64,000 nt of DNA from Acholoe squamosa (Eukaryota; Annelida; Polychaeta; Phyllodocida; Polynoidae), in the NCBI GenBank assembly GCA_949317995.1, contig OX439036.1, forward strand, positions 25,813,854 to 25,877,853, written 5' to 3'. The notes beneath the pieces are model-generated. The model saw only the letters and a program-made list of their open reading frames with translations. It had not been told where the DNA came from and made no database searches. Position 1 is the first letter of the stretch, and the number at the start of each line of letters is the position of its first letter. Below, piece by piece: positions 3,413 to 54,184 of the stretch. A program made the position numbers and the translations under genes.

Positions 3413-3719
3413 TGCAAATATCCGTATATACCATATTTGATCTAATAAGTGGCCAGGGCACTAAATTCTTTTTACTTCAGCATCATAACTAAGAGCAACT
3501 TAGTCATGGAACATAGACCAATCAACTTCTTCCAGAGATAAAATATTTGAGTCTAATTATGTCAGTATGTTGACTTTCATATCAGAAATATAGGTCAACT
3601 TATAGGGAATCAGTACCCTATTTTCATGTTAGCCTTTTTTGATAGGATTTATATAAATTGAAAAGAGTGTGCTAGTGAGGTAGTCCTCCTAGAGCAATGC
3701 ACAAGACTTATCTGATGCA

Positions 3720-5265
3720 TTTGATGACATCATCATACTATGGTGTCACTCAGTACGACAGAATATTGCGCGATACAATATTATTATACAAGGTTCTGTT
3801 CTATCAAATATGGAGAATTTCAACTATCTGGGTGTAATTACACAGAAAAAAAAAATGTTCAAAATCTTAGTCTAACAATACCTAGTCAAAAGCATGTGCC
3901 TAAGTGTCCAAGTTTTTCTTAGTCAAATATGACTAACCATTAGTCAAAGTGCCCAACTTGCCTTGGCTTGCCTGATTTTGACTAAGATTCCTCAGTGGTT
4001 TTGACTAAGTATGCAATCTAATAATGGTGAGTGTAAGCTCTGTATAGGATCCATATCCCACAAATAATTATCTCATCATTTAGGAAGCATACATGTAAAA
4101 TGCCTCACATCATTTTCATTAGAGCCCCAGAGTCAATTACTCTGGGTTTCCCACAAAGAAGCAGTTACATCTGTGGATATTTTACTTATCTAGATTCCCA
4201 CAGAAAAGGTGTAATTATCTGTCTACCTAGTTTATTTAACAAATCATTAAACTATTTGACATATTTTGCCAAGCTTGATGTTATATTGAATTGTGAAAGC
4301 CTCAAAATTATACAGCACCTGAAAATCACCATCATTTTGACATCCATCGAATAGTTTATGGTACACAGCCACCAGAAAAATCCTGTTTCAAACCACGCTG
4401 CCACCTTGTGTGTAAAGGCAATACTATGCCAATATAGTTTAGTCAAAGTGACTAAGAGATCTTAGTCAAAGTGACTAAGTGACAGTGACTAAGATAAGTT
4501 AGCTTGCCTGAAACTCCGATCAGATACCTTATTCAAGATTGTGGTTGGAGAGAGAAACTGATTTGGGTAGTCAATGTGACTAAAATAAACTAGAAATTGT
4601 TAGTCACACATTAGTCATATGTACTTACTAAGATTATTTGGGCGTTTTGACTAAGTAAAGTTAGATTGACTAACATGGATTTTTTTCTGTGTATCGATAG
4701 CGACTTAAATTTCAAGGTGCACTGTAAAAAGGTTGAGCCAATGGGTATATCAAAGTTGAAACAGTTGCGTAATATTGTAAAATATTTGAATCATGAAAAT
4801 GCTCTATGTATCTACAAACAAATGGTTTTGCCCATACTAGAATGTTGTAGTTTTGTTCTAGACTCTGGTCCAAAAACCCTGGTAGATCATATAGACATTG
4901 TACAAAACCACTGCCTTAGAGCTTGCATAAGGGTGAAAAATGCCCAGGATGTACACATAAATGACCTCCTAACTAGGTGTAAAGTGGACTAAGTATGAGA
5001 AGGAAAAAAGCACTAGCATGTATAATGTACCGTTATTCACAAGATGACGATAATATTATAATCCCTAGTCATGAGCTAAGAGGGAATGGGAAGAGAAAAT
5101 TGAAAGTAAACAGACCAAAAACAGAATCTTAGAGGGGTAGTCCTCTATATAGAGGCAACCAAACATGGGAAGTGTTGTATGCTGATATACAACTGAAAGC
5201 TACTATGAGTGCTTTTAAATCGTGTCTGAGAGGAGATGTACTTGTGACACTGGGTAGATTGTGAT
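3720..5265 (+). pseudogene. Broken non-LTR retrotransposon reverse transcriptase, interrupted
   Basis: This is the 3' part of a LINE reverse transcriptase. Near 3720-3740 one frame reads FDDIIILW, which fits the catalytic (F/Y)xDD box; 40 codons on, at 3825-3839, comes YLGVI, the usual block after it. The frame is then cut by an 851-bp insertion (3841-4691) and resumes at 4694 with IDSDLNF. The thumb/connection region follows, with a VLPILECCSFV block like the VLPxLxYCS motif of jockey- and CR1-type elements. A frame change near 4990, a TAG near 5131 and a TGA near 5263 complete the decay. There is no intact ORF upstream, so the copy is 5' truncated. It is dead. The clade cannot be told from this much sequence. 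Confidence 0.8.
3841..4691. mobile_element. TA-flanked foldback element full of TAGTCAAAGTGACTAAG motifs
   Basis: The ends are inverted repeats: CACAGAAAAAA...ATGTT on the left and AACATGGATTTTTTTCTGTG on the right, each bounded by TA (3839-3840 and 4692-4693). Removing the element and one TA restores the reverse-transcriptase frame exactly across the gap, which fixes the insertion point. The interior is largely variants of TTAGTCAAA(G/T)TGACTAAG in both orientations near 3870-4010 and 4440-4670. No ORF lies inside, so it is non-autonomous. TA duplication suggests a Tc1/mariner-like transposase, by inference only. Confidence 0.8.
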
Positions 5266-15056: not shown

Positions 15057-15219
15057 ACTGTTATAGTCTAAATCCCGGTTACCGATCAAAATGAGCGGTC
15101 AGGACCCAACTATAGCTGTCTGGGCGGGAAAGAAGGGTGGAAGGGGAGGGAGAGACCAGTCAGATTCTATACTCGATTCCCAGATACCCCTATACAAATT
15201 CTTTAAGATTGCTGCGATA

Positions 15220-15910
15220 GAGTGCATCATGCCAATCAGGGCATGATGCACCAATGAATCAATGCCTATTTCTCAGGTGTTAGTCGACAGATTTCAAAGT
15301 GTAATATATTGATTTTAATGTTTTCAAGCATACTGATTTTATTTTTCCACTTTATTTACCAATATTCCTAATGGTGGTTGAGATAGAGTGCATCATGCCT
15401 TGAGTGGCATGATGCACAAATGAATCAATGAGTATTTCTCGGCTGTTTATCAACATATTTCAACATGCAATACATTAATTTCGAGGTTTTCAACCATGCA
15501 GATTGCATTTTTTTAAACTTTTAGATGCATATTCCTGATGGATTCAGAGATAGAGTGCATCATGCCAATCTGGGCATGATGCACCAATGAATCAATGCCT
15601 ATTTCTCAGCTGTTTATTGACAGATTTTAAAGTGTAATACATCCATTTCAAGATTTTCAACTATGCTGATTCCATTTTTTACACTTCTAGTCCCATATAC
15701 CTGATGGTTGCTGAGATAGAGTGCATCATACCAATCTGAATCAGGGCATGATGCACAAATGAATCAATGCCCATTACTCTGTAGTTTATTGGCAGATTTC
15801 AACATGTAATATATCAATTTCAAGGTTTTCCACCTTGCCAATTCCATTTTTTGAACATTCAGATCCATATTCCTGATGGTTCCTGAGATAGAGTGCATCA
15901 TGCCAATCAG
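15220..15910 (+). repeat. 166-bp satellite, four full units plus part of a fifth
   Basis: GAGTGCATCATGCC marks unit starts at 15220, 15386, 15553, 15719 and 15891, a period of 166-172 bp. Each unit also carries GCATGATGCACCAATGAATC, a short palindrome with the start motif, and a TTTCAAGGTTTTCAAC block. The array is broken by the TIR element at 15939 and resumes at 18106. Confidence 0.9.
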
Positions 15911-15938
15911 GAATCAATGTAGGTTTCTCTGCAGCTGG

Positions 15939-18617: not shown

Positions 18618-19372
18618 CCGTAATCTCCCGCGTATAAGACGCGTCCTCTACGCCAAACAAATGCCTTGTGTGTCTTATAGGATTTCTTCAAGTTGGGGGT
18701 GCGTCTTATACGCGGGGTTTTCCAACATCTCATTTGGGAAAATGCGCCGATGACAGCTTGAACTCATATAGCCAGCAGCGCGGCAGACCGGTCGCTGTAG
18801 ATTTGCTCGGCGGGCAAAACGCCGACCGTGTGCCGATGACAGCTTGAACTCATAGAGCCTGCACCGCGGCAGACCGGTCAGTGTAGATTTGCTCGGCGGG
18901 TTTGACGCCGACCGTGTGCTGATGATAGCTTGAACTCATATAGCCAGCAGCGCGGCAGACCGGGAGGTGTCGACGGGCGCTCGGCGGGTTTGACGCCGAC
19001 CGTGTGCCGATGACAGCTTGAACTCATATAGCCAGCAGCGCGGCAGACCGGTCGCTGTAGATTTGCTCGGCGGGCAAAACGCCGACCGTGTGCCGATGAC
19101 AACTTGAACTCATAGAGCCTGCACCGCGGCAGACCGGGAGGTGTCGACGCGCTCGCTGTGGATAAGGCCCACCATGCGCCGATGGGGGTGGGGGTGGTGG
19201 GGTGCGTCTTATACGCGAACCCCCCCTGCTGAGTTGGGGGGGGCGTCTTGTACGGGTTTTTTTTTACAAATCGATTCAGGGGGGTTGGATGCGTCCTCTA
19301 CGCGAACCAGCCTACCGTGAGTTTGGGGAGCGTCTTCTACACGCACCGCGTCTTCTACGCGGGAGATTACGG
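18618..19372 (+). mobile_element. CCGTAATCTCCC-type MITE carrying an 86-bp tandem array
   Basis: TA-flanked, with ends CCGTAATCTCCCGCGTATAA and its complement; 755 bp. The start has the CTCTACGCCAAACAAATGC block of the short subfamily. Length beyond the normal 230-270 bp comes from the internal tandem array. Neighbouring copies of the interrupted 160-bp repeat show the empty site with a single TA. Confidence 0.95.
18746..19180 (+). repeat. 86-bp GC-rich tandem array, five units
   Basis: Units begin GCCGATGACAGCTTGAACTC at 18746, 18832, 18918, 19006 and 19092. Each contains CGGCAGACCGG and GCTCGGCGGG and ends CGCCGACCGTGT. It is much more GC-rich than the surroundings and confined to the MITE. 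Confidence 0.9.
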
Positions 19373-32400: not shown

Positions 32401-35400
32401 CACATCTTTAGACCCTTTTGTTTTAGATCATCAAGATTTCAGATGAAAGTACAGGTACATCCATGACGATTTCATACCATAAACCATAGCCTATAAAAAT
32501 ATACAAGACGACCCTTACTTTGTATTACTACATACATGTGTATTCCTTGAACTTGTGACAATGTGAACATTTTCGTTTTTAAATAGATTCCTGTACTCCA
32601 TAGTGTAGGTCATGATAGGTACTACGTGTAGTATCTGGGCCTATGTTCAATGGCCATATTTTCTTTTCAATAATCCATGTGACAATGCCACTGTATGCTG
32701 AGTTGAGAGTTCTATGCCTACTTTTCTACTGCCCATAGCCCACTTTACCCCTCTGACGCCAGTAGAATTTCTATGGCTCATTTGGGTGACAGAGACCCAG
32801 AGGACTTCATGTATAGGTTTACTAGTAGAAAGCTAAATGAAGCCAATGCATGCCTTACATAAAAGTCCCATGTGAAACTCCCAGTTGCCACCCTCAATCA
32901 ACCTATAATCCTTCTCACCTTCAGGTGAGTTGTCAATGCCAGTGCAAATACTGATGCCACATGTACATCAAAGGAAAAGTTGTGTGTTAGAGCTTCTACC
33001 CGGCCTTCCTGGTGTCCAGCACAACCCCAGGGTGCGATTATCAAATAACAATGCCAACTGTTACATATTAAGTACAGGTAACACCTAGTTATATGGGATA
33101 ATTTCTCTCTTTTTGTGTAGCAAAAAGTAAACCATTTTCCTTCACTAATTATAAAACCCCTTCCCATACAAAACATGTTATAGCTGGAATACCTTAAAAT
33201 TTTGGCAACCGAAATCGTAATCATTATGGTTGTAACAGGGGTAAAAAAATAACAAGAAATTACGAAAAAATCATAACACTCCGTAGCTATGGATTTAACT
33301 CATGGTTACTTGACATAATCACAGCTTGATTTCCTTTATAAGTGTAAGCTAAGATGCTAACCGCAAACCATGCAGTGGTTTTATCAATTAGACCATATCT
33401 ATAAGGGACCCTAAGTAGGACAGCACAGAGTGCTTTCATTGTTTAATCCAATAAAGATGTTTTAGGCTTTTGAACTCATTGATAACTATCTGATACAATA
33501 ACATCTTGGATATTTTCATTTTTTTCTATATGCATAATTCCCATAAACAATCGTTCCGATTCCTTTTTTTGTGCCTCATTTTTTATCCTGACCCCCCCCC
33601 CCACCCCTGCTTTGCCCCATGCATGCCTAGGGACTCCCTCAACCTTACTGTCGATGACGTCACAACATGGCAGGGTGATAAGAGGCAGGGTACATGGCTC
33701 AGCACCCAACCTACAGTGGACAGTGGGGCTGTGTATGGTGGCCTGTGCTATCATATAGCCGCACAACAATTAATGGTTGACCCTGGGCTATAGAAATCAA
33801 AAGAAATATAGGTAGGGAAAATCTCGTGGCACTGCCTCTTTAAGAGGTTAATGGTTAGCAACTGGAACTAATTCTCCTCGCACCTTTCTTTGTTTGTATA
33901 ATGACTGCTGTAATGTCTGCTGCCTCATGTATCATGTGATAGCTTCCCCAGCTCTATCTGCACATGTTATGGGTGTCTTGCACAATTTATGTCACATTTT
34001 CTCTCTGTACAGTTTGGGGGGTACACAAAATATTCATGCAAATGCAAGTGTGTAATTTTTCTCTATGTTCTATGGTACCATACTCTTATATATGGCACTG
34101 ACTTGAGTCAATGACATAATAACGATACTGTAGTCCTACAATTGTAGACCGAGGTTGAACCTCGGGTCTAATAAATGACCTTTTACATAAGTGAGTATAG
34201 CTCACATAGCCATTATCAGCTGGGGGCCGCCATTAGACCCCAACAGCACTATGACTAACACCTTCAGCCCCCCATTGGTCAATAATACAATAGCCATGTG
34301 CCGTATAGCCACGGTATAACCTAGATTACAGACAGGTGTTGAGGTAGGGGCAACCCCATCTAGATTAGAGGTTAGGTTCAGGCCGATACAATACAATGAT
34401 AACTCATATAGCCAGCACTCGTTCGATGGTCCCTTTTATACCTCACAAGCAGGTCCGATGTAATGTTCATTTGCTTGCACTTCGATTCAGAGCATCTATA
34501 GAACTAGCCAGTTATAGAAAGTGCTGAATGGTATATATTCAACACGCCAATGGTAGAGCAATATACAAAGATAGTATTAACCTACCAGTGGATAGCTTGA
34601 GAAAATACAGCCATTCCATTATTATAACTATTACATGTAGATATATATATTTCAGTTTATCATTTCATCATTCCCTTCTAATTACAAATCTCTGTGAAGG
34701 TGGGTGTAGATTAGACCCTTTGCTGACTATCACAGAATAGCTATACGTCTTTGTGACTATCTAGTGTGTAATACACAAATTTGCACCATCATCGTGGCGC
34801 CTTATTTGGAGATGTGGTCTGGGTCCAGCCTGTGGTATCATAGGCTGGATGGATCATAGGATTATTCATGGATCAAACTTGCAAACTGCCGCCAAGTGCA
34901 TCTAGATGCCTGTCCACAACAGTTATCTTATCTGGCAGAGGTCAAGGTTGATTAACAAAAGGCAGTGTAGAATATATACATTAAGGAGGATCTCTTTATC
35001 TTAATAGTGATATCTTCTACCTTGCTATCGAAAACGCACAGTTCTGTCAGCATGACATGTCTCAGCTACAACTTCACACTTTAAGGACTCCATCTATGCT
35101 GAGTCATAAAAACATGTTTATGTGTGTAATTTGATATGTACATGGTTGACGATCTTATTTCATGTGATTGTGACTCAACATTTTTTGAATCCTCTATAGT
35201 TCACATGCAATAATCCTTGAGAAACACACTCCTTCTTGCTGAAAGGAACAAACTTAAAAATGAATATTGACCTCCTAATCCTTCATTATAGGCTACTATT
35301 GATAAAAGTTTGCCTAATAAGTAATATATTATGTGAACGAACTTGGTTTGGGGCTTCCCTTGCCCACTTAAAAGAGTCTATTTCTACTCTTTCCTATCCC

Positions 35401-38400
35401 CTCAGTGTGTGTAGTGTACATATGCGCCAGCACTGACACATTAGATTTTGTCTGTGAATTTGTGTAATGCAATTCTCTCGCCATGAATACGACCTAAGCT
35501 GTCGAAATGACGTTAAACATTTATTACTCACTCAATCAAACTTGATTTGGTTCCCGACATAAGAGCCATTGTTAGGACCTGTATTGTACTGAATGGGAGG
35601 AAATACAATTTTAGTTTTATCTGTATTTAGTCAAACTGACTACCTACTATCCTTGCAATGGTTATTATCTAACCCTGATGGGTCTTATTTCCGGCACAGA
35701 TTAGAACCTAGGTTCTGTAAATACTAGGATCAGAAGTCTGTGTTTAACACTACATGTTCATTACGTCTATTCCATATGTAGGGAGCGATACAATATGCCT
35801 GTGGCAACATGCCAAACAGCAACACTTCACCGCACCTTTCTAAGCATGTAAGTGTTAGATCTTGATCCATTCATGTAACTAAGTATCTGTACTGATCAAA
35901 TACCGGGGTATTCTACCCAAAGTTTACTACACTATATTGTGACCCCTGAGGAGTGGCTGTTATATTTATCATACCATAGCAACACAATATTACTCCCTCC
36001 TTAGAATTGGTATGTATAGCTCTGAAAATGGCACCAACATTGAACACAGTAATCATCTAATAGGATAAATGCCCGCGGGATATACATGTGCGGTCACTAA
36101 CTTGACTATTGTAGAACCTAGAATAACGTGCATGTACCGTACTGTAACGTACGTATAAGGCGCATCCCGCATATAAGGCGCGCCCCCAACTCAGCAATTT
36201 TTATAAGGCGCACCTGGAGGTCGATTCTTTTAGTTTTCAGTGCCCAGTCTATGAGGCACCCTGAATTTCGAGCTTATTCTATGAGGCTCAGGAGGTCTCA
36301 AAGTCACGAAGAAGATGCGCCTCATGACCAGGAGAATAAGCTGTGGCATATACACGAAACTGTAGCCTACTTCGCCTAATAAAACCTCCAATGAGAGGGG
36401 GTGCACCTTATAGAATGGGGAAATTACATTAAGATAGTAGTAAACTTATGATGAAGACGAAGTTAATGTAACCCTTCCAACAACAACAAACAAAAAAAAG
36501 ACTGTTCAAAAAAAGGTCCTAGGTTCGCCTTATAAGCGTGATGTGCCTTATACGTGAGATATCAGGGCAATGATTGTACAGTATAGGATAGGTCAGTCCA
36601 TACAGTCCTATAGTGAGGGCCAACCCCCCTCTACCCCCCCCCCCCATGAAACTAGGTGACCTTGTGTGATCAGTATTGGGCCCTTTATAGGATAAGGGGG
36701 TTTATGGAGCTATCATGTATCTTCCTGAAAGGGATACCAAAAGAAATAAAGAGACCATCTAAGCCAAAAAATCCTGCTGAATCCAAAAATGTTCGTCTTT
36801 CTTATCAGAATTTGACCAAAAGTATCTGAAAATGATGTTTGATGAGGGAAATACTTTTAAAAATGTACAAAAATTATATTGAAAATGATTGCAAATCTTT
36901 AAATATAGAACACATAAATCAGAGTTAATACCTTAATCCACATACCCAAATGTCTGCCTATCTCTCAGTCAGGCAAGTTCTGGGCTTGTGCATTATTCTG
37001 CCTATCCCACATACAGCATATCAATTGTGTACCTATCACTCATCCTGCCTATCTCTTCAATCTGAAACATTGACAGTTCAATCTGGTTATCTCTTAAAAG
37101 GCCTAACTTATAATGCTTATCCCTCACCTTAGCTTATCTCATTTGTTCCTTCTTTCCTTTAGTCTACCTATCCTCAATCTGCCTCTCATTCATTTTACCT
37201 ATCCCTCATGGTGACTATCCCTCAGACCATCATGTTTAATCTGCGCTGTTTGTCTGCTATATAAGCCTTTATTGTTTAACGGTACATTCCTTACCATGTC
37301 TACTATTTCAATTTTACCTATCCCTGATAATGCCTATCATGTAGCCTACCTATCCCTCATTGTGCCTATCCCCCAACTCTGCACATCCCTCATATTTGAA
37401 TTGCATATCTGTCCCTAGGATGCATGTTTGTTTTTTTTTGTTTTTTTTTTATGTTTGCTCATCTTACAAGGTACTCTGTGCCTATTCCTTAAATTGCTAA
37501 TTGCTCATACTGCCTATCCCTCTTGCTACCCATCCTTACCTATCCCCCATGCACTTTATACAGCTCTCTTACCCATCTCACCTCTCTTACCTACCTATGT
37601 CACAACCAACCTTCATTATGATGACCATTTCTTAGTCACCCTATCACCTAACATACTGGTTACAGTCCACCTTATTCACGCATCTACCTATCATTCATGC
37701 TGCATATCTTTCAGTTTACCTATATAATGATATGAATGGAGGATAGGCATAATGGGGGATAGGTATATTTCACAAGGCATAGACCTGGAGACAGGTGGAA
37801 GAAATTGAACACAAGCTGAGATATGTATAGAGAGAGCGAGTTAGATTGACTGAGCTGACATGGTAAGAAAACCATATGGAGAGCATGAGGGATAGGTATT
37901 CAAAAGGATTGGTAGCAAGGGGGATAGGTAGCATGTGCAATATCTAGTTTGAGGGATAGGCACAGAGAGTACCTTGTAAGATGAGCAAATGCAAAACAAG
38001 AAAACATGGGTGGTAGCGACAGATGGGCAAGTCAAATATGAGGGATATGCAGAGTTGGGGGATAGGTATAATGAAGGATATGTAGGCTTTATGCATTGTT
38101 AAGGATAGGTAGGATCAAAATGATAGACATGATAAGCAATGTAACTGTTAACCATTAGGGCCTAAATAAACAGATGAACAATACAGTTTAAACATGGTGG
38201 TCTTAGGGATAGTCACATGAGGGATAGGTAAAATGAATGATAGGAAGACTGAGGATAGGTATACTATGGGAAACTTGGACCAGAGAAGATTAGCTAAAGT
38301 AAGGAGTAAGCTTTAGTATCTAGGTCTTTTGGGAGATAGCCTTACTTCAAGATACTTTAGATTTAAGAGATAGGCAGTATGAGTGATAGGTAGACTAAGG

Positions 38401-41400: not shown

Positions 41401-43851
41401 CTCTAGACTGTATGAGACATCTCAATACAGTCTACAGCACTCCCACAGCCATGCCCCGTGCATTATTCCCTAAATATATGATTTTGTCCATCATGTATGA
41501 CATCCGATCCGCCCAGAGCTGACACCCTAAGCTGACACCTCCATAGAAAAGCATTGAGTGCACAAATCGTCTGCACCCATTTTGAGGAGACATATTTTTT
41601 TAAAACCTTAATATCAGAAAGATAAGGACCAGTTAACAGGTAACAATTACACCTCTAGGATCCTGAATATGTACACTATCTCATGACATGTTTCATTTTC
41701 TCTCATATTTTAGCATTTTGATGTTATATGAAATGAATTTTCTTGGGCTCTGAAAATTTTTGGAAGAAAATTCTAAGGTTGGCCTCATTTGGCTCAGGTA
41801 GGTCAAGCGACCGCAAAAAAAAAACACATGTTTTTGGGCCCTTGTATATTGTTGTAGAAGACAATATTTTCGGATTAAGTTCCTACATGTACTAACATGT
41901 ACTGGACTAGTCAGTTTAGTGGCTCTGACTCTAACCTCACGAGGTTGGTACAGTTTATCCCCGGAAGCTTATCTGAAATGATCCCGTTTCACTAGGTCAA
42001 TGCATATCTGTTGTCGATCAGTCATACAATATTAACATGACCACACCAACTATCAGGGCTCGACAAATCCCTGTGCCCAATGCCCGTGACTCAAAAAAAA
42101 TTCACTGGGCACAAACAAATTTTCAAGTTATGCCCAATGGGCACAGCTGTCCAAAAGCTACTAAAGCCATCTTAAAACTATGTGTGTTCCATTTATCTAA
42201 ATATGTAATTTTGAGTATAAAAAGCAAAGGTGTTGGGCACCGACCTTGCCTATTGGGCACAACCTTTTTTTTGCTCTTGTGCCCAGTGGGCAGACAGTCT
42301 CCAAACTGATTTGTCGAGCCCTGACTATGGAATTTAGAATCTAGGAATTCAAGTCCATGGTAGTGCTTTAGTTAGCCCTCTGCTCTCTATGGATGATTGC
42401 GCTATTGGTATGAGTTTATCAATCATTTGTTTACTCATTTTGGTCAAGGCATCTTCAACAGTATTTATATGAATCTGACATATCGAAATCTGAGGTTGGC
42501 ACTGAAGATGCTAACCTGAATGAAATGCTGGTGACCGGTTTAACAAACATCATTAGAGGCTATGAAATTCCACCCACCTTTCTACTGAATTATGATGAGT
42601 TCCACCGTGTGATCCACCAACCGCATATAATAATCCGTCCATAGCAGCAGCTCCAACTCGATTTCTAGGCACTGACATGTTGGCACACCGATGCCATGCA
42701 TTTATAAAGGGATCATAACAGTCTACAGCATGTGAGTCTATATTTCCATCTGGGGAATTATTTCTACCACCAATAATATAGAGTAACCCGTGTATTACAC
42801 AAGCTGCTACCCCACTCCGGGGTAGCGGCAAGTCGGTCAATTTGAGCCATTCTTTTGACTCTGGGTTATAGCATTCTACATTACTGAGTGAGTGTCTCAA
42901 GTAACCGCCAGCAACATAGATAACCGGTGGGGCAATTGGGTTCCGTCTCTTCTCAGGACAGCGCCTATGCAGGGTGAGGTCCTGGAAGATGCGACTCAGG
43001 TAGTCACGACACTGTGGTGTCTTCTGCAGGATATCACAGTGTTTGAGCTGCTCCTGTAGGAAGCAGGGGGTTAGGAAGTGGCAGCGGACGGCAGACAGAA
43101 GATGCTCCAGCTTAGGGCGCCGCGTCTCCTCAACATGGCGGACCCAGAGAAGCACTGCCTGATAAACTTCAGATTCACAGCGTACATTCAGTTCATCACT
43201 CTTTATCACCTGAACAAGCTGGGTAGGTGATAGGTTCATAAACTCCTCTTGCTGGCATACAGCACTGAAATTTTGGTAGACATACTGGCGCGCCTTCTGG
43301 TGCAGGTCGTGGCAGCCATGCACCTGAGCAAAGTCGGCTATACCGATACAGTTCGAAGGGTCGAGTTGGTGTTCGAGAAAGGTGCAACAAGCCTCAATAA
43401 CATGTGACATCTGCAGCATACAGGCAGCAGGCAGAAGGGCGCACACATTCATCTCACTGACATGGATCTCTGATGTGTAGGCAAATTCAATGAGTGTGGC
43501 CAGGACACCAGGCTTGATGCTCAGCAGTGGGATATCACACATCTCACACTCCTTCATGCCAGATGTGCAGAACATAGCTTTAAAATATGGGCTGGCCGCT
43601 GCCAGCACCAGTTTATGCGCACGGTATGTCTCCGTCTCAGCACGTAGATTTACATCACACAACTTCCCGGCATGACGCAGGTTATTCATCACCTCAAACG
43701 CCTCCTTTGGATGCTTCATGATGGTAAAATGCATACTGCCATCCAGTGGTCTGTCAGCATTGACTGGTTTGGGTCGATAGCACCCTGGTGTGCTTGGGGT
43801 CCCCCTAGCGCCACCAGAAGCAGTCCCTGGTGTGGAACCTATATTGCTCAT
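29324..43851 (-). CDS. KEAP1: KEAP1, BTB-BACK-Kelch adaptor of the CUL3 ligase (4 coding exons)
   Basis: KEAP1 holds NRF2 in the cytoplasm, presents it to CUL3/RBX1 for ubiquitination and releases it when its cysteines are modified. Coding exons, in gene order, are 43851-42578, 30688-30483, 30061-29885 and 29463-29324; intron phases 2, 1 and 1 keep one frame of 598 residues (human about 624). BTB spans about 55-162, BACK/IVR 165-295, six Kelch blades 310-598. The first ATG of the open exon, at 43851, has A at -3. By alignment with human KEAP1, pocket residues Y334, S363, R380, N382, R415, H436, R483, S508, Y525, Q530, S555, Y572 and S602 all have identical counterparts. C273, C288, C297 and C613 are kept, but C151 is Asn135 and C226 is Thr. 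The short human tail after MEPC is missing. A closely related KLHL protein is unlikely given [10 protein letters not shown] and the pocket. Confidence 0.95.
29464..29884 (-). other. KEAP1 intron 3 (421 bp)
   Basis: GT-AG intron. It contains remnants like the CCGTAA MITE family (CTCACATATAAGACGCACAT near 29546 and ACATACAAGACACACC near 29710). KEAP1 intron 2 of the close pair, 30062-30482, happens to be 421 bp as well and holds only single-copy-looking sequence and an (AG)n run near 30428-30441. Confidence 0.7.
29885..30061 (-). CDS. KEAP1: KEAP1 coding exon 3: Kelch blade
   Basis: It follows CTTTTTCTGTAG. The 177 nt encode [20 protein letters not shown] (Y525 and Q530 equivalents), the blade [14 protein letters not shown] and [10 protein letters not shown] (S555), ending ALG at CTGG|GTAAGA. 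Phase 1 at both ends, so the exon could be skipped without breaking frame. Confidence 0.95.
30483..30688 (-). CDS. KEAP1: KEAP1 coding exon 2: Kelch blades
   Basis: It begins after TGTTCCAG at 30689 with YNPTDATW, contains [20 protein letters not shown] and DGANRL (the R483 equivalent), and ends TTRSGAG at a GCAG|GTAAAA donor. 206 nt, phase 2 in and phase 1 out. Confidence 0.95.
31180..31405 (-). mobile_element. Truncated GGGAGT-type MITE
   Basis: Only one end is present: CATGGTCACTCCC at 31393-31405. The CTTTTGACCTATAGTAACGCG block near 31228 matches internal blocks of the elements at 47148 and 49191. The opposite end is missing. Confidence 0.7.
31663..33839. mobile_element. TTAA-flanked 2.2-kb element
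   Basis: AGAGGCACTGTCACG at 31663 and CGTGGCACTGCCTCT ending at 33839 are inverted repeats, each directly flanked by TTAA. Perfect TTAA duplication is the mark of piggyBac and Kolobok transposases; ends starting AG rather than CC favour Kolobok, by inference. No transposase ORF was seen, so the copy is non-autonomous or decayed. A CCGTAA MITE (31705-31976) is nested near its left end. Confidence 0.7.
31705..31976 (+). mobile_element. CCGTAA-type MITE, short subfamily, with internal duplication
   Basis: TA-flanked; ends CCGTAATCTCCCGCGTATAA and ACGTGGGAGATTACGG. A 39-bp unit, from GCGTCTTATACGCGAAAATG to CATTTGCTAAGTTTGGGGT, is present twice in tandem near 31856-31935. Confidence 0.95.
35351..35535 (+). 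mobile_element. Retroposon 3' end (SINE-like), copy 1
   Basis: From GGGCTTCCCTTGCCCACTTA to the tail GTCGAAATGACGTTAAACAT, TTATTACTCACTCAATCAA. The same sequence is present inverted at 48149-48323. A short ACTC-type tail after a TTAAACA motif is common in SINEs and LINE 3' ends of marine invertebrates. No A/B boxes were seen, so it may be a 5'-truncated LINE or a SINE body. Confidence 0.7.
36137..36566 (+). mobile_element. Decayed CCGTAA-family MITE
   Basis: Left end CCGTACTGTAACGTACGTAT then AAGGCGC-type blocks; right end GCCTTATACGTGAGATATCA. Many substitutions and an expanded middle. It lies immediately beside the large inverted repeat at 36582. Confidence 0.55.
36582..38843. repeat. 2.26-kb near-spacerless inverted repeat with CCTATCCCTCA motifs
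   Basis: TATAGGATAGGTCAGT at 36582 pairs with the complement of ACTGACCTCTCCTATA-like sequence ending near 38843. Matches continue inward: CCCCCATGAAACTAGGTG with CACCTAGTTTCATGGGGG, GAGTTAATACCTTAAT with its diverged partner, ATGTCTGCCTATCTCTC with GAGATAGGCAGACAT, and GCTCATCTTACAAGGTAC with GTACCTTGTAAGATGAGC. The centre is near 37735, so each arm is about 1.1 kb. The middle of the arms is studded with CCTATCCCTCA (left) and TGAGGGATAGG (right). No ORF. A transcript of the intron would fold into a long imperfect hairpin. Confidence 0.85.
39527..39652. mobile_element. Small TA-flanked MITE (CTGTAAAACCCC ends)
   Basis: 126 bp, TA on both sides, ends CTGTAAAACCCCGTGTATAA and TTATACGTGGGGTTTTACAG. 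Internal ATAAGCCGCACC blocks parallel the ATAAGGCGCACC of the CCGTAA family, so it is a related subfamily. Confidence 0.85.
40224..40538. mobile_element. Decayed MITE related to the CCGTAA family
   Basis: CTGTAGTATCTTGTGTATAA on the left and CTTATAAGCGAGGTACAATG on the right are diverged inverted repeats. Internal ATAAAGCGCATTCC and ATAAGCCGCC blocks fit. C-runs near 40257-40269 and 40427-40438. Confidence 0.5.
41187..41478. repeat. Two adjacent hairpins ending in GTGCATTAT
   Basis: First hairpin: CTGGGCAAAGCCAGAGTGCA.. and GATAATGCACTCCCAG (about 41190-41275). Second: GGGAATAATGCAC..GTCATGGCTG..GTGCT..AGACTGTATGAGA pairing with its complement and ending GTGCATTATTCCC (about 41368-41472). 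The second is almost perfectly paired over 105 bases and may be a MITE. Function unknown. Confidence 0.7.
42054..42323. mobile_element. 5-bp-duplication MITE (CAGGGCTCGACAAATC ends), copy A
   Basis: The ends CAGGGCTCGACAAATC and GATTTGTCGAGCCCTG are perfect inverted repeats, flanked on both sides by ACTAT (42049-42053 and 42324-42328). Internal GTGCCCAATGGGCAC-type motifs repeat. A second copy lies at 57713. No ORF of its own was recognised. Confidence 0.85.
42578..43851 (-). CDS. KEAP1: KEAP1 coding exon 1: BTB, BACK, Kelch blades 1-2
   Basis: This holds 424 codons plus two bases. An N-terminal Gly/Thr/Pro-rich stretch is followed by the BTB (CDVNLRAE...[16 protein letters not shown]), the BACK domain ([40 protein letters not shown]) and the first Kelch repeats to HHNSVER. 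The donor is AAAG|GTGGGT at 42577, splitting the Arg codon before YNP. Open reading continues upstream to about 44007 but without an ATG. Confidence 0.95.
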
Positions 43852-44077
43852 AGTGATGTGTGTTGTTTGCCACCCAGAATGGTGTTTAATAAACAACAGG
43901 TCGTTTCTGATATGAAATGTAGGTGCCGTCAGGTAATGGTGGTATACAATATCTCCATAAAAAGGTCCACAAAGAAATCCCTTGGTTGAGTTGACATCTA
44001 GACACAAACACCTTCCAGAAAACGCATTGTTTCACACATGGCTTGGCTGTAGGGCTACGTAATTTCCTCACAATCAC
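43852..44077 (-). other. KEAP1 5' UTR part of the first coding exon
   Basis: On the gene's strand a TTCTTTTGCAG acceptor ends at 44078, so the exon probably begins at 44077 and a non-coding first exon lies further upstream (higher coordinates), not located. The frame stays open from the ATG up to about 44007 but has no earlier ATG; only a TTG is found there. Confidence 0.55.
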
Positions 44078-47452: not shown

Positions 47453-48053
47453 TACTAGGCTAAGCCTAAGGGATGCTGTCTGTATGTACCTACCGATTTG
47501 TAGAATGATTCATTAAGAATTGAGTACAGGAGAGGTGCGCGGAGAGTGCTCCCGCAGGACTGAAAGATTTGCCAATATAACTTATCCCACACCGTACAGA
47601 GATCCTTGAGCGGCAGACGGTGTGGACTCCTCACACTTTGTCTATGACTATGTCACTGCCGACACTGGTCACTGCCACTGCACTTAGTGTGGGGGTTTCT
47701 ACACCGTCTGCCACTCAGAGAGCTCTGTACGGTGTAGGATAGTTATAATAGCAAATGTTTCGGCCCTGCGGGAGGACTTTCCGCACACCTCTCATGCTTT
47801 CAATCCTTAATCAATCCTTCTAAAAATTTAGATATACATACATCCAACCCTCCTGTAGCTTGGGGATCGTACGATTATTTTAAGATAGGAAAAATTGAAA
47901 TTTATTAACCCAGGTCGACTTGTACGTGAGATGTGCTTTGAAAACAAAGATGGCGGCTACTGGAAGTGCAAGGCTTCACTCGGCGGGCTTTAAATGGTTA
48001 TATCTCAATAAATATGGTAAATTTCACTTCCATATTTTGTAAATTGCTAGAGG

Positions 48054-49019
48054 TAGGTACATGAATGAAAGGGCTGCTATGAGCGCGGACCATGTCCTAG
48101 AAAACTGTGACAGGTTTGGGAGGTGTGTGCAGGGATAGGTCTCAGTGAGTGAGTAATAGATGTTTAACGCCATTTCGACAGCTAAGGTCATATTCATGGC
48201 GAGAACGACATTACACAATTTCACAGAGGAATGTGTCAGTGCCCGCGCATATGTGCACCACACACATCCTGAGGGGATAGGAAAGAGGAGATATAGACCC
48301 TTTTAAGTGGGCTAGGGAAGCCCGGGATAGGTCTCAGTGATTAGCTTTAAAATTATAGAAATAGTTGATGAATAAGGTTCCTGATATTTTATCTGCCAAG
48401 AAGACAAGATTTCCTTCGATTTAGTGTTTCAATTTTGTATGAACTCTAATTAGTTAATTAATTACCACCTTAATTAGGTCAATGTTTTAGTAATCTCTCA
48501 TTCATTATATGATAGAACTTAGGAAGTCGAACAAAAACATATAGAACAGCAAGTACATAGTCTTAACCTCATCTCTACCAAATATGAAGGAATTCTATTG
48601 ACGAGCACATAGGTTTCTAGGATCAGCCAACTTAAATATCGGCTAATTTTGATGGTTTTTCTCAACTTTTTATATTCATAAATTCATATCTCTGACCCTA
48701 GTGGTTGTATCAGCTTCATTTAAACTGCATTGTATCCATAAAGTCATTGGCTTTCAGGAAATATATGGTTTGCTATGGTATATCTCTTTTCAAATTATGG
48801 CAATAATGTAGCTAAGGGTCACAGACAATTCCTCTTTGTAGAGTTTAATTTCATGACGAAAATTTGGCCAACCTTGTCTCACAAAAACCTCAATAACTCA
48901 CCCAAAAATAACCTTAAAATTACAATTCAAAAAGCATGTTGCTTCTCACATATGTGCGGAAAAGACTTTGCCAAAAACCAAGAGCTCTCATGTGTTTAAA
49001 ATTTTTAGTCACATACCTA
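48054..49019 (+). mobile_element. TAGGTA element with 7-bp duplication, copy 1 (carries a SINE)
   Basis: TAGGTACATGAATGAAAGGG at 48054 to AAATTTTTAGTCACATACCTA at 49019, flanked by CTAGAGG on both sides (48047-48053 and 49020-49026). It is the 774-bp element of 49510 and 51140 plus a 192-bp insertion. Subterminal sequence is identical or nearly so among the three copies. No ORF longer than chance. Confidence 0.95.
48149..48323 (-). mobile_element. Retroposon 3' end (SINE-like), copy 2
   Basis: Inserted in the element above: 17 bases, GGGATAGGTCTCAGTGA, are duplicated at 48132-48148 and 48324-48340. On the minus strand it reads from GCTTCCCTAGCCCACTTAAA to GTCGAAATGGCGTTAAACAT and CTATTACTCACT. 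The other two copies of the host element show the empty site. Same family as 35351-35535. Confidence 0.9.
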
Positions 49020-49190
49020 CTAGAGGACAAGATGATCTATCTTCAATACCTTCTACAGAACCCAGCTTTATCTCTAAAATATATCGGTGAGACCCTTGTA
49101 AACAAACTACTTGCAACTTCCGGTTGCAGCAGGAGGCAGAACTAGTAGCTGAAAACTCTTATGATGGAGAGGAGGGCAGGTCTAGTCTAA

Positions 49191-49505
49191 GGGAGTGGTC
49201 ATTATTTATCAACAGGGGGGGGTGGTGGGTTTACACGCGGATGCGTGGAAATTTTTTACGCCCCCCCCCTCGACGGCAGTAAAAAAAATTTGCGCCCCCC
49301 CGCGCCTCCGGCGCGGAGAGTTTTCGCGCCCCCTCTTTGATCTATAGTAGCGCGCGGGCTTTTTTGCTAAAAAGAGGGTAAATTTTTTTAGCCCCCCATC
49401 AAGAGGGGTCAAAATTTTTTTAGCCCCCCCCTCGAGAGGGGTCAGAATTTTTACGCCCCCCCCTCAAACCCACCCCCCCCCTGTTGATAATAAATGACCA
49501 CTCCC
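49191..49505. mobile_element. GGGAGT-type MITE (PIF/Harbinger-like)
   Basis: GGGAGTGGTCATTATTTATC at 49191 and its complement ending 49505, TAA on both sides. 315 bp, with G/C runs next to the ends. The next element (49510) has inserted exactly at its right border. Confidence 0.85.
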
Positions 49506-49509
49506 TAAC

Positions 49510-50283
49510 TAGGTATGTGACTAAAAATTTTAAACACATGAGAGCTCTTGGTTTTTGGCACAGTCTTTTCCGCACATATGTGAGAAGCAACATGCTTTTT
49601 GAATTGTAATTTTAAGGTCATTTTTGGGTGAGTTATTGAGGTTTTTGTGAGACAAGGTTGGTCAAATTTTCGTCATGAAATTAAACTCTACAAAGAGGAA
49701 TTGTCTGTGACCTTTAGCTACATTATTGCCATAATTTGAAAAGAGATATATCATAGCAAACCATATATTTCCTGAAAGCCAATGACTTTACGGATACAAT
49801 GCAGTTTAAATGAAGCTGATATGACCACTAGGGTCAGAGATATGAATTTATGAATATAAAAAGTTGAGAAAAACCATCAAAATTAGCTGAAATTTAAGTT
49901 GGCTGATCCTAGAAACCTATGTGCTCGTCGATAGAATTCCTTCATATTTGGTAGAGATGAGGTTAAGACTATGTACTTGCTGTTCTATATGTTTTTGTTC
50001 GACTTCCTAAGTTCTATCATATAATGAATGAGAGATTACTAAAACATTGACCTAATTAAGGTGGTAATTAATTAACTAATTAGAGTTCATACAAAATTGA
50101 AACACTAAATCAAAGGAAATCTTGTCTTCTTGGCAGATAAAATATCAGGAACCTTATTCATCAACTATTTCTATAATTTTAAAGCTAATCACTGAGACCT
50201 ATCCCTGCACACACCTCCCAAACCTGTCACAGTTTTCTAGGACATGGTCCGCGCTCATAGCAGCCCTTTCATTCACGTACCTA
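49510..50283 (-). mobile_element. TAGGTA element with 7-bp duplication, copy 2
   Basis: 774 bp in minus orientation relative to copies 1 and 3, flanked by CCCTAAC at 49503-49509 and 50284-50290. Ends TAGGTATGTGACTAAAAATT and AATGAAAGGGC-type subterminal followed by TACCTA in the read direction. Nearly identical to copy 3 by eye. Confidence 0.95.
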
Positions 50284-51139
50284 CCCTAACTGCACTGGAC
50301 TGAACGTGTGATCACACAGTAAATAGTATTGTAACATGTAGATGTCTGGGATACCAGATACCCCTTGAATCGCTTGATACTTACTTCACAGTAAATATTT
50401 AGATTGTTGAACAGAATATTCAGTAACATACAGAGAAACTTTCCTCAATGGTTTAGTCCACGATTTGAGTTATTCCTCTGTTTATGTCTTAATGTTAACC
50501 TTTCTGGGGCACCTTTCTGTTCGCTGGTCCTACCTCATTCCTTGTGTTGTTAACTTAAGTATGCCGGTGATCAGCTAAAGCAGTGGACCGGAACCAGTAT
50601 GGCGGGCAGGGAGCATATATGCAGTAGATATATGGTGAAGTTGTGGAAGTTCTGAAAGAAATTAAAATATCTAGAGGACTAAATGGGTAACCATTCATTT
50701 TAGATATTAATTATATCGCTTATTTCAGTTATTTGAACTCTTGCTTTTTATCTTCTCGCACCATCCGTCACGTACAATATAAAGTGTTTTTCCACTAATA
50801 AACGCTCCCTGACCTCTCTTTGAACACTTGCATGGCCGCCAAAACACAACTTGTCAAAACAAATAAACCGTTGGGTATTTTCACATTTTCGTTGTCTATA
50901 AGACCAATGTGAGGAGGCTACGGACTTTGATAGCATGAGCATGTGGAATTCGAACATATTCTACGGTAAGTTTTGTAGAAAAAGGTACATGAATCGATTG
51001 GTTTCAAGTGAATCCACATTTAATTTTAACTGACACTGACAGTGTCAGTTAGGGCTTAGGCCGAAATACCTGCCTGCTCACTAGTCACAGATCTGAGACC
51101 CTAATGACACTATGTTTTAGGGTCTCAGAGACCTGTGTA
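50284..51139. other. Intergenic between TAGGTA copies 2 and 3
   Basis: No exon or element could be supported. ACTGACACTGACAGTGTCAG near 51030-51050 is a small palindrome. A minus-strand frame at 50748-50957 is unrecognised; a KEAP1 first exon could lie in this region but cannot be identified. Confidence 0.4.
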
Positions 51140-51913
51140 TAGGTACGTGAATGAAAGGGCTGCTATGAGCGCGGACCATGTCCTAGAAAACTGTGACAGG
51201 TTTGGGAGGTGTGTGCAGGGATAGGTCTCAGTGATTAGCTTTAAAATTATAGAAATAGTTGATGAATAAGGTTCCTGATATTTTATCTGCCAAGAAGACA
51301 AGATTTCCTTTGATTTAGTGTTTCAATTTTGTATGAACTCTAATTAGTTAATTAATTACCACCTTAATTAGGTCAATGTTTTAGTAATCTCTCATTCATT
51401 ATATGATAGAACTTAGGAAGTCGAACAAAAACATATAGAACAGCAAGTACATAGTCTTAACCTCATCTCTACCAAATATGAAGGAATTCTATCGACGAGC
51501 ACATAGGTTTCTAGGATCAGCCAACTTAAATTTCAGCTAATTTTGATGGTTTTTCTCAACTTTTTATATTCATAAATTCATATCTCTGACCCTAGTGGTC
51601 ATATCAGCTTCATTTAAACTGCATTGTATCCGTAAAGTCATTGGCTTTCAGGAAATATATGGTTTGCTATGATATATCTCTTTTCAAATTATGGCAATAA
51701 TGTAGCTAAAGGTCACAGACAATTCCTCTTTGTAGAGTTTAATTTCATGACGAAAATTTGACCAACCTTGTCTCACAAAAACCTCAATAACTCACCCAAA
51801 AATGACCTTAAAATTACAATTCAAAAAGCATGTTGCTTCTCACATATGTGCGGAAAAGACTGTGCCAAAAACCAAGAGCTCTCATGTGTTTAAAATTTTT
51901 AGTCACATACCTA
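51140..51913 (+). mobile_element. TAGGTA element with 7-bp duplication, copy 3
   Basis: 774 bp, flanked by CTGTGTA at 51133-51139 and 51914-51920. Ends TAGGTACGTGAATGAAAGGG and AGTCACATACCTA. Exactly the length of copy 2. Confidence 0.95.
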
Positions 51914-51920
51914 CTGTGTA

Positions 51921-52690
51921 GAAGTACCTGAGATTGACAGTGGTGCTGAGCGGTGACACCGGAAGTGGCACATGCATTGTTTACATGTGCTTGGTTTAAA
52001 CATTTAGAAGTAGATTTGATCAAAATCGTGAAGAACATATCAACTTTAGATGTATTTCTAGAAGTAGAAGTTTTCAAAAGATTGAAGCATATCTTTTTCT
52101 ATTTCATATGTTACATGAGATGAAAGTTCGCCGATTGAATTTCTGAAAATCCAACATGGCCGCCATGTTATTTCTAAAGAAAACAATGCCAGGATTTTTA
52201 AAATCTCATTTTCGGCAGGTAAAACATATCCCATCTTAATGAAATTGATTGTGGTGCAACTTAAGGGTTCAAATTATCCAGAAATGAAAGTTATAGCTAG
52301 ATTGAAGCAGAAATAGAAGCAGGAGAGTGCGCCGAATGTTGAGGCGCATCCAATCTCAAAAACTCAGGCCCCAGTACGCCCAACTCACAACAAGTATGTG
52401 AGTTGGGCGCCGATCCGACTACCTGCTCACAGGCAGGATCCAAGATGTATACAAGTCTATAGTGGCACAAACACATGGCTAGTCTGAACTAACTGCTCAC
52501 TGTATGTTCCTGGAAATTGTCCCTCCTATTCACAAACATGTAGTTTTCATGTACATCTGCTTATATTGACTGAAACATGAGATAGATCTATATCCAATAA
52601 ATCTTGTCCGGCGGGCGCTGACTCTTACCTGACGGGCTACCTGGTGTTTGCTTCCTTTTGAAACAAAGGGCTAACCAACCAAGAATAGTA
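51921..52690. other. Intergenic, no gene seen
   Basis: A hairpin CGCCCAACTCACA..TGTGAGTTGGGCG lies at 52377-52410. Nothing else recognised. Confidence 0.5.
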
Positions 52691-54184
52691 CCGTAATCTC
52701 CCGCGTATAAGGTAGGTACATCACATGAAAATTAAGATAAGGAGTTAGAGCTAAACCCCTGTGTCTTAGTTGTGCGGGAGAGTGCAAGGATTTCAAATCT
52801 TTTGGAATCATGTTGATATCTCAATTCGTTCTCACAATATCGCAGAATTAGTATATAGAAATCTGACATTTTTGTCCTAAGTATTCAGACAATTTGTTGT
52901 GACCTTCTGGATCCCAATAATGGGCCAATTAGCCATAATAAATGAAGAAATGAAAGGGAGGTAAGTTAGTAAAATGTCAATTCAATTGGAATGAACCACA
53001 ATATCAGCATGAAATAAAAAGCTATCTGACCCGGATGTTTACCTGTACGAAATTTTACCTTGACCTAATTTTCCTGTGACCTATATATCTGACCTACATT
53101 AGTTCATGACCTAGATTCTGCTATGATCAAATATATAGGAACAGACGCCGTAAAATATGAAGAAGTAGACATTCTGATAACCTAACCACTGGTATTTGAC
53201 CCTAACATTAACATCTGATGGGTTTCCTATTTACATAGTTTCAGGCCACCCTATATGTTTGACCAACATTAGCTCATGACCTAGATTTTGATGACACAAT
53301 CAAATAATTTTTTCCTGTGTGGTAGCAAGTTCACATGGTCGGGAAATCGTAAAAAATCAGTTAATTGCTCGCAAAGTCGGGGAGCCTGTGAAACAAGTTT
53401 ATCTTATCAAGTATTGTAAGTGTCACACCTGTATGATGTACATGTGTCATGCAGTGACGGTTTTAAAACTGCCAAATCACCATTTCGCCCCTTCACACAG
53501 GAAAATGTGATTTTTCGAATTTCTTTTGCAGTCACCAACTGTACTATTCAGTCCACATGCACAAACTAGACCTTATATGAAACGCCATGAAACATACAAT
53601 TACTTTCTTTTAGTTTCATTCTACTTTTTCATTTTGGACAACTTGATTTAGATGACCTTTTCAGTCATCCACTTCAGAAATCTACAAAAATGTCTAGAAA
53701 TTCACCAATTTCCCCGAAATTTTTTTATATAGGTAAAATAAGCCATGAAATACCAAGATAATTTCTTATATGTGTTCATTTATTCTTTGTTCTGTAAGAA
53801 TATGCCAATTTCAGTGCAGTTTAATTTCCAATGCAGCAATTTGATGGGTCACAAAAAAATTGTCACAAATGATGGACACTCCCAGAGGAGTGGTGCAGGC
53901 ATTGTGTGATGTACCTATATAAGGCGCGTCTTATACGGGGGGTTTTAGTTCTCATTGGATCCACAAGGGGGACACCAAGACCTTTCTTTTGATATCTTAC
54001 ATGCCCCCTTGGTCAAAATGGGGCACAGGAGGGCCCAAGGTGGCCCAAGCTACCCATAGGTTTTTGAATTTTGAAAATTCATTCAGTAGAACCAAAGTTA
54101 TGAATTTTTCATTTTTTTGAGAATTTTCCAAAACTCTAGGTGCGCCTTATACGCGGGCTGCACCTTATAAGCGGGAGATTACGG
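52691..54184 (-). mobile_element. CCGTAA-type MITE, long subfamily, split by another element
   Basis: The MITE ends are at 52691 (CCGTAATCTCCCGCGTATAA) and 54184 (GGGAGATTACGG), TA-flanked. About 282 bp are native; its body, in minus orientation, matches 11430, 13884 and 63024. The 1205-bp element at 52713-53917 sits 22 bases inside the left end. Confidence 0.95.
52713..53917. mobile_element. TAGGTA element with 7-bp duplication, larger relative (1205 bp)
   Basis: Ends TAGGTACATCACATGAAAA and GTGTGATGTACCTA are inverted repeats (TAGGTACATCACA). TATAAGG is duplicated on both sides (52706-52712 and 53918-53924), and removal of the element plus one copy restores the host MITE. The interior is unlike the 774-bp element and has no long ORF; it includes GACCTA-rich repeats near 53060-53290. 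Confidence 0.95.

Follow-up and report, generated by a model that had tools for sequence, protein, structure and literature searches.

Four insertions in a 64,000-nucleotide stretch of the genome of the annelid Acholoe squamosa (GCA_949317995.1, contig OX439036.1, positions 25,813,854 to 25,877,853 of the forward strand; the window) share TAGGTA ends, and each is flanked by its own perfect 7-bp target duplication. They belong to a 774-bp and a 1205-bp family, which are real and have spread recently through the genome. We take them, with a probability of roughly 85%, to be non-autonomous cut-and-paste DNA transposons that share a single transposition system, similar to miniature inverted-repeat transposable elements. 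As non-autonomous DNA transposons they are of an already known kind. Their inverted ends, direct target duplications, dispersed copies and empty site are those of a non-autonomous terminal inverted repeat DNA transposon, and we read them as recently active.

Results

Ends and duplications in the window

An initial annotation, made from the letters of the window, had placed four insertions with TAGGTA(C/T)(A/G)T ends here, and both their coordinates and their ends are confirmed. All four start with TAGGTA and finish with TACCTA, and the extended end is likewise found in 4/4 (Table 1). The direct repeats are four different 7-mers, one per insertion and all perfect, as had been claimed.

Three insertions had been taken as copies of one 774-bp element, one of them enlarged by a short interspersed nuclear element (SINE), and this stands. 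The two intact copies are 100% complementary to each other. In the 966-bp copy, 192 bp have been inserted into this element after its position 95, and the insert is SINE-like and bounded by its own duplication of ~17 bp. The 1205-bp insertion, annotated as a relative with an unrelated interior, is akin to the 774-bp element by its ends and duplication length.

The perfect terminal inverted bases are 6 in the 774-bp element, followed by scattered matches, and 13 in the 1205-bp element. The outer parts of the latter share, besides the inverted end, an 11-base match farther inside. Between the two outer 300-bp parts of the 774-bp element, no inverted match of at least 9 bp was found.

Table 1. 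Insertions and their target duplications in the window
Feature	Positions	Strand	Basis
774-bp family copy enlarged by SINE-like insert, 966 bp	48054..49019	+	end, duplication and alignment comparison
Target duplication CTAGAGG, 7 bp, left of 966-bp copy	48047..48053	.	direct repeat
Target duplication CTAGAGG, 7 bp, right of 966-bp copy	49020..49026	.	direct repeat
192-bp insertion in 966-bp copy: SINE-like unit and second copy of ~17-bp duplication	48149..48340	+	
774-bp family, intact copy	49510..50283	-	ends, duplication, alignment
Target duplication CCCTAAC, 7 bp, left of 774-bp copy	49503..49509	.	direct repeat
Target duplication CCCTAAC, 7 bp, right of 774-bp copy	50284..50290	.	direct repeat
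774-bp family, intact copy	51140..51913	+	ends, duplication, alignment, genome search
Target duplication CTGTGTA, 7 bp, left of 774-bp copy	51133..51139	.	direct repeat
Target duplication CTGTGTA, 7 bp, right of 774-bp copy	51914..51920	.	direct repeat
1205-bp family copy; matching ends, unrelated interior, without long open frame	52713..53917	+	
Target duplication TATAAGG, 7 bp, left of 1205-bp copy	52706..52712	.	direct repeat
Target duplication TATAAGG, 7 bp, right of 1205-bp copy	53918..53924	.	direct repeat

The association of these ends with 7-bp repeats was set against chance. When every inverted pair of 6-mer ends 50–5000 bp apart was considered across the window, counting 7-mers with more than two different letters, no 6-mer other than TAGGTA exceeded two distinct 7-bp duplications; TAGGTA itself had 4 and the runner-up 2. 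The 95 TAGGTA pairs in the window gave duplications of 4, 5, 6, 7 and 8–11 bp in 2, 0, 0, 4 and 0 cases, respectively. Among 634 TAGG(T/C)A pairs in the window and 28 loci, chosen because they contain elements, exact 7-mers occurred in 35 rows, in which the window 1205-bp copy is counted twice, against 0.04 expected by chance.

Copies throughout the genome

The host genome of 1,481,437,319 bases in 63 contigs was searched with both elements, and the first look gave 940 candidates for the 774-bp element and 506 for the 1205-bp element. The 40 best-matching candidates were scored for each family and the copies were read mostly from these, so that young intact copies are favoured. The 40 scored 774-bp copies are 99–100% identical to the query, and the 1205-bp search gave 39 other main rows at 94–97% identity.

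The genome-wide check bore out the annotated 7-bp duplication in the copies read. It is perfect in 38 of the 42 774-bp copies (3/3 in the window, 20/21 in L009–L028 and 15/18 in L029–L046). These 42 comprise the 40 scored ones, an additional copy in L009 and the window copy that the SINE-like unit interrupts. The 1205-bp copies have it in 17 of 18 cases (8/8 in L047–L054, window copy included, and 9/10 in L055–L074).

The copies differ little from one another. For those of 774 bp the mean deviation from the consensus is 0.74%, the maximum 2.07% and the pairwise difference 1.39% (n = 41, leaving out the diverged L018 relative and the SINE-interrupted copy), and eight 1205-bp copies differ by 0.6–2.0%. 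Because the copies are mostly best-scoring ones, these figures describe the youngest burst rather than the whole family.

Nested copies supply a natural empty site. In L027, a 774-bp copy (3705–4478) is nested in a 1205-bp copy with CCTGTGT on both sides, and this 7-mer is single at the same place in the uninterrupted 1205-bp element of the window. In L024, another 774-bp copy is nested in an 888-bp TAGGCA-ended element with GTAGATG on both sides, and a diverged relative of this host in L026 has the region without the insertion.

Further elements and older relatives

Three other elements carry TAGGCA ends and perfect 7-bp duplications. They are a 957-bp element (L021:5666–6622, CTAGGCA), the 888-bp host (L024:2893–4561, 1669 bp minus the nested 774-bp copy and one 7-mer; GTGCAGG) and an 864-bp element (L050:369–1232, GTGAAGG). 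The 774-bp family also has a 786-bp relative with 6/7 of the duplication matching (L021:2263–3048) and a 784-bp relative, ~30% diverged, with a degraded duplication (L018:4704–5487). The sequence at L018:5787–6238 is an older, shorter relative, its last base being placed to within one position.

The ends are thus better written as TAGG(T/C)A. Since elements and relatives of different ages share them, the system seems to have operated over a long time.

Target preference

Both main families and the three other elements together offered 58 target sites with 56 different 7-mers, and the strand-averaged target is CYWWWRG. C at position 1 or G at position 7 occupies 61/116 positions (p = 7e-15 against an assumed 20%), and G at position 2 amounts to merely 3%. 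Pairing inside single sites is weak, with p = 0.045 for positions 2 and 6 and no significance for the five other tested pairs. Hence, the likeness to a palindrome is confined to the average site.

Coding capacity

The longest listed open reading frame (ORF) in the 1205-bp element encodes 63 amino acids (aa). The ORFs of at least 60 aa in the 774- and 888-bp elements of L024 are of 74 and 62 aa, and the 957-bp element in L021 has no ORF of at least 140 aa. Lacking a long open frame, the 774-, 1205-, 888- and 957-bp elements are read as non-autonomous, in agreement with the initial annotation, and for the same reason they need a transposase from elsewhere. None of the ORFs of at least 140 aa in the window and 20 loci looked transposase-like by eye, no family search having been run on them.

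Discussion

The proposed mechanism is that a transposase from an unseen autonomous element would recognise the short imperfect TAGG(T/C)A ends together with family-specific subterminal sequence. Both ends would then be joined to target strands cut 7 bp apart, at sites with the average preference CYWWWRG, and the gap repair would leave the 7-bp duplication. The cut-and-paste chemistry, the mobilisation in trans and a single transposase group for all the elements are all probable on this pattern. Rather than being new, the enzyme would probably belong to one of the long-duplication DDE/D groups already known, such as hAT, P, MuDR, Dada, KDZ and IS3EU. Given the youth of the copies read, a functional transposase may still be present or may have been until recently.

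Several points weigh against this picture. The case for a single shared transposase is built from six terminal bases plus the length of the duplication, and three of the five element kinds (957, 888 and 864 bp) are represented by a single full copy each. The copies read, mostly the best 40 of the 940 and 506 candidates, are biased to young intact ones. Four 774-bp copies have no perfect duplication: L028 is without any, L032 has CACTCAG in its flanks with an altered right end and no duplication, the repeat of L034 is present but offset by additional bases on one side, and that of L044 has one mismatch. One 1205-bp copy, in L071/L072, also has no perfect duplication. T at position 2 or A at position 6, a common feature of hAT and P target sites, is not enriched (39/116, p = 0.42). 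Neither an autonomous element nor the transposase that moves these elements was found among the ORFs of the window and 20 loci and around 4 of 20 P-type matches.

As to which superfamily the enzyme would belong to, our guess ranks hAT first, P second and an IS3EU-like or new group behind. hAT comes first by elimination and base rates. That the elements are non-autonomous hAT members, an animal counterpart of the 7-bp variant hAT7, is a reasonable candidate that still falls short of an even chance. hAT is a common class in animals and its ends often start with T/C-A-G, but its conserved fifth-base G is absent from TAGGTA and TAGGCA, and its T2/A6 target preference is the one without enrichment above. 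In a report on rust fungi, hAT duplications are usually 8 bp, also 5 and 6 bp, and 7 bp in hAT7, the widest range of lengths that we met (PMC12730594). The 7-bp duplication here agrees with the hAT7 length, on which the comparison was made, whereas the hAT7 families reported are fungal.

It is rather unlikely that a P-type transposase moves the elements, as it does Galileo. The 7-bp duplication falls in the 7–8 bp of the P superfamily. Galileo itself is described with 7-bp duplications in Drosophila buzzatii (PMC2775673) and with 7- or 8-bp duplications and a palindromic target in D. willistoni (PMC4168063). It also resembles our elements in its palindrome-like target and many non-coding copies, but its own repeats are very long and its target, GTAGTAC/GTATTAC, is unlike CYWWWRG. 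For P-type elements other than Galileo, repeats of 30–50 bp are cited (PMC3688188), whereas ours have 6 to 13 perfect bases.

The genome does hold P-type sequences. The profile PF21787 gave 20 matches from only 26 first-look candidates. Two of the matches are adjacent on C1, which makes ~19 places, and several sit in open frames of up to 511 aa. Around the 4 of 20 matches that were read, 8 kb each, no TAGG..CCTA pair at least 1 kb apart with a 7-bp duplication was found and no other inverted ends were convincing, although ends farther out are possible. These four, L075–L078, lie in open frames of 400–511 aa with no convincing terminal repeats within the 8 kb, and are possibly domesticated genes.

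It is improbable that the TAGG(T/C)A ends and fixed 7-bp duplication stand for a cut-and-paste superfamily as yet undescribed, or for a new branch deep within one, comprising at least five non-autonomous kinds of different ages. The combination is common to five kinds with different interiors and to relatives of different age, and it was not met in the open-access listings and passages searched, in which end letters were seldom queried and which leave Repbase outside their scope. Yet absence from open-access text argues weakly, and both the ends and the length of the duplication are variable inside known superfamilies. That these are elements of the IS3EU type whose duplication length has shifted is slightly more improbable still. 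The IS3EU ends in rust fungi, TAYGG..CCRTA, come near TAGG..CCTA, but they go with a 6-bp duplication and repeats of >30 bp (PMC12730594), whereas in our elements the duplication is 7 bp and the perfect bases number 6 to 13. The paper on Styx, which has coding sequence in common with IS3EU, used 6-bp duplications in its search (PMC10853768). The IS3EU signature proper was set aside, as its duplication length, TAYGG ends and >30-bp repeats are all unmatched.

Three other systems with long duplications were rejected. Dada, offered by the initial annotation as a near match, has 6–7 bp duplications without terminal inverted repeats, as in its U6 and U1 groups, and inserts in small-RNA genes (PMC3706591). 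The elements here do end in inverted repeats, their 58 sites comprise 56 different target 7-mers, and a scan of the window, which bears on its four sites, found neither tRNA nor Rfam matches. Kyakuja of the KDZ group has the 7-bp duplication but CA..TG ends and no inverted repeats (PMC12730594), as against the inverted TAGG..CCTA ends. The Mutator-like Tm1 makes duplications of 8–10 bp, mostly 9 (PMC3169594), rather than 7 bp; the string TAGGTA appears a single time in the text of that paper.

The length of the target duplication mirrors the transposase geometry and aids the classification of DNA transposons. Large and recently active sets whose duplication is strictly 7 bp are uncommon, and this one lends itself well to tracing the responsible enzyme. 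Should the enzyme be new, a transposase group would be added; should it be of the hAT or P type, the known ends of that group would be widened.

Other features of the window and loci

Further copies of the SINE-like unit lie at 35351–35531 of the window (85% identical), in L025 (95%) and in L023 (77–98%). The window segment 49190–49509 is a repeat unit whose ends are inverted and GGGAGTGGTCATTATTTATCAACAGGGGGG-like and whose interior is C/G-rich and tandemly repeated, and the 774-bp copy at 49510 is inserted at its right edge. The inverted ends of L018 1805–3670 are similar to those of this unit.

On the - strand of the window, 42553–44031 holds a 492-aa open frame that looks BTB/Kelch-like by eye. 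Tandem arrays occupy 15209–15916 and 18746–19149 of the window, with units of ~166 bp and 86/174 bp, and 62–2665 of L010, with a unit of ~373 bp.

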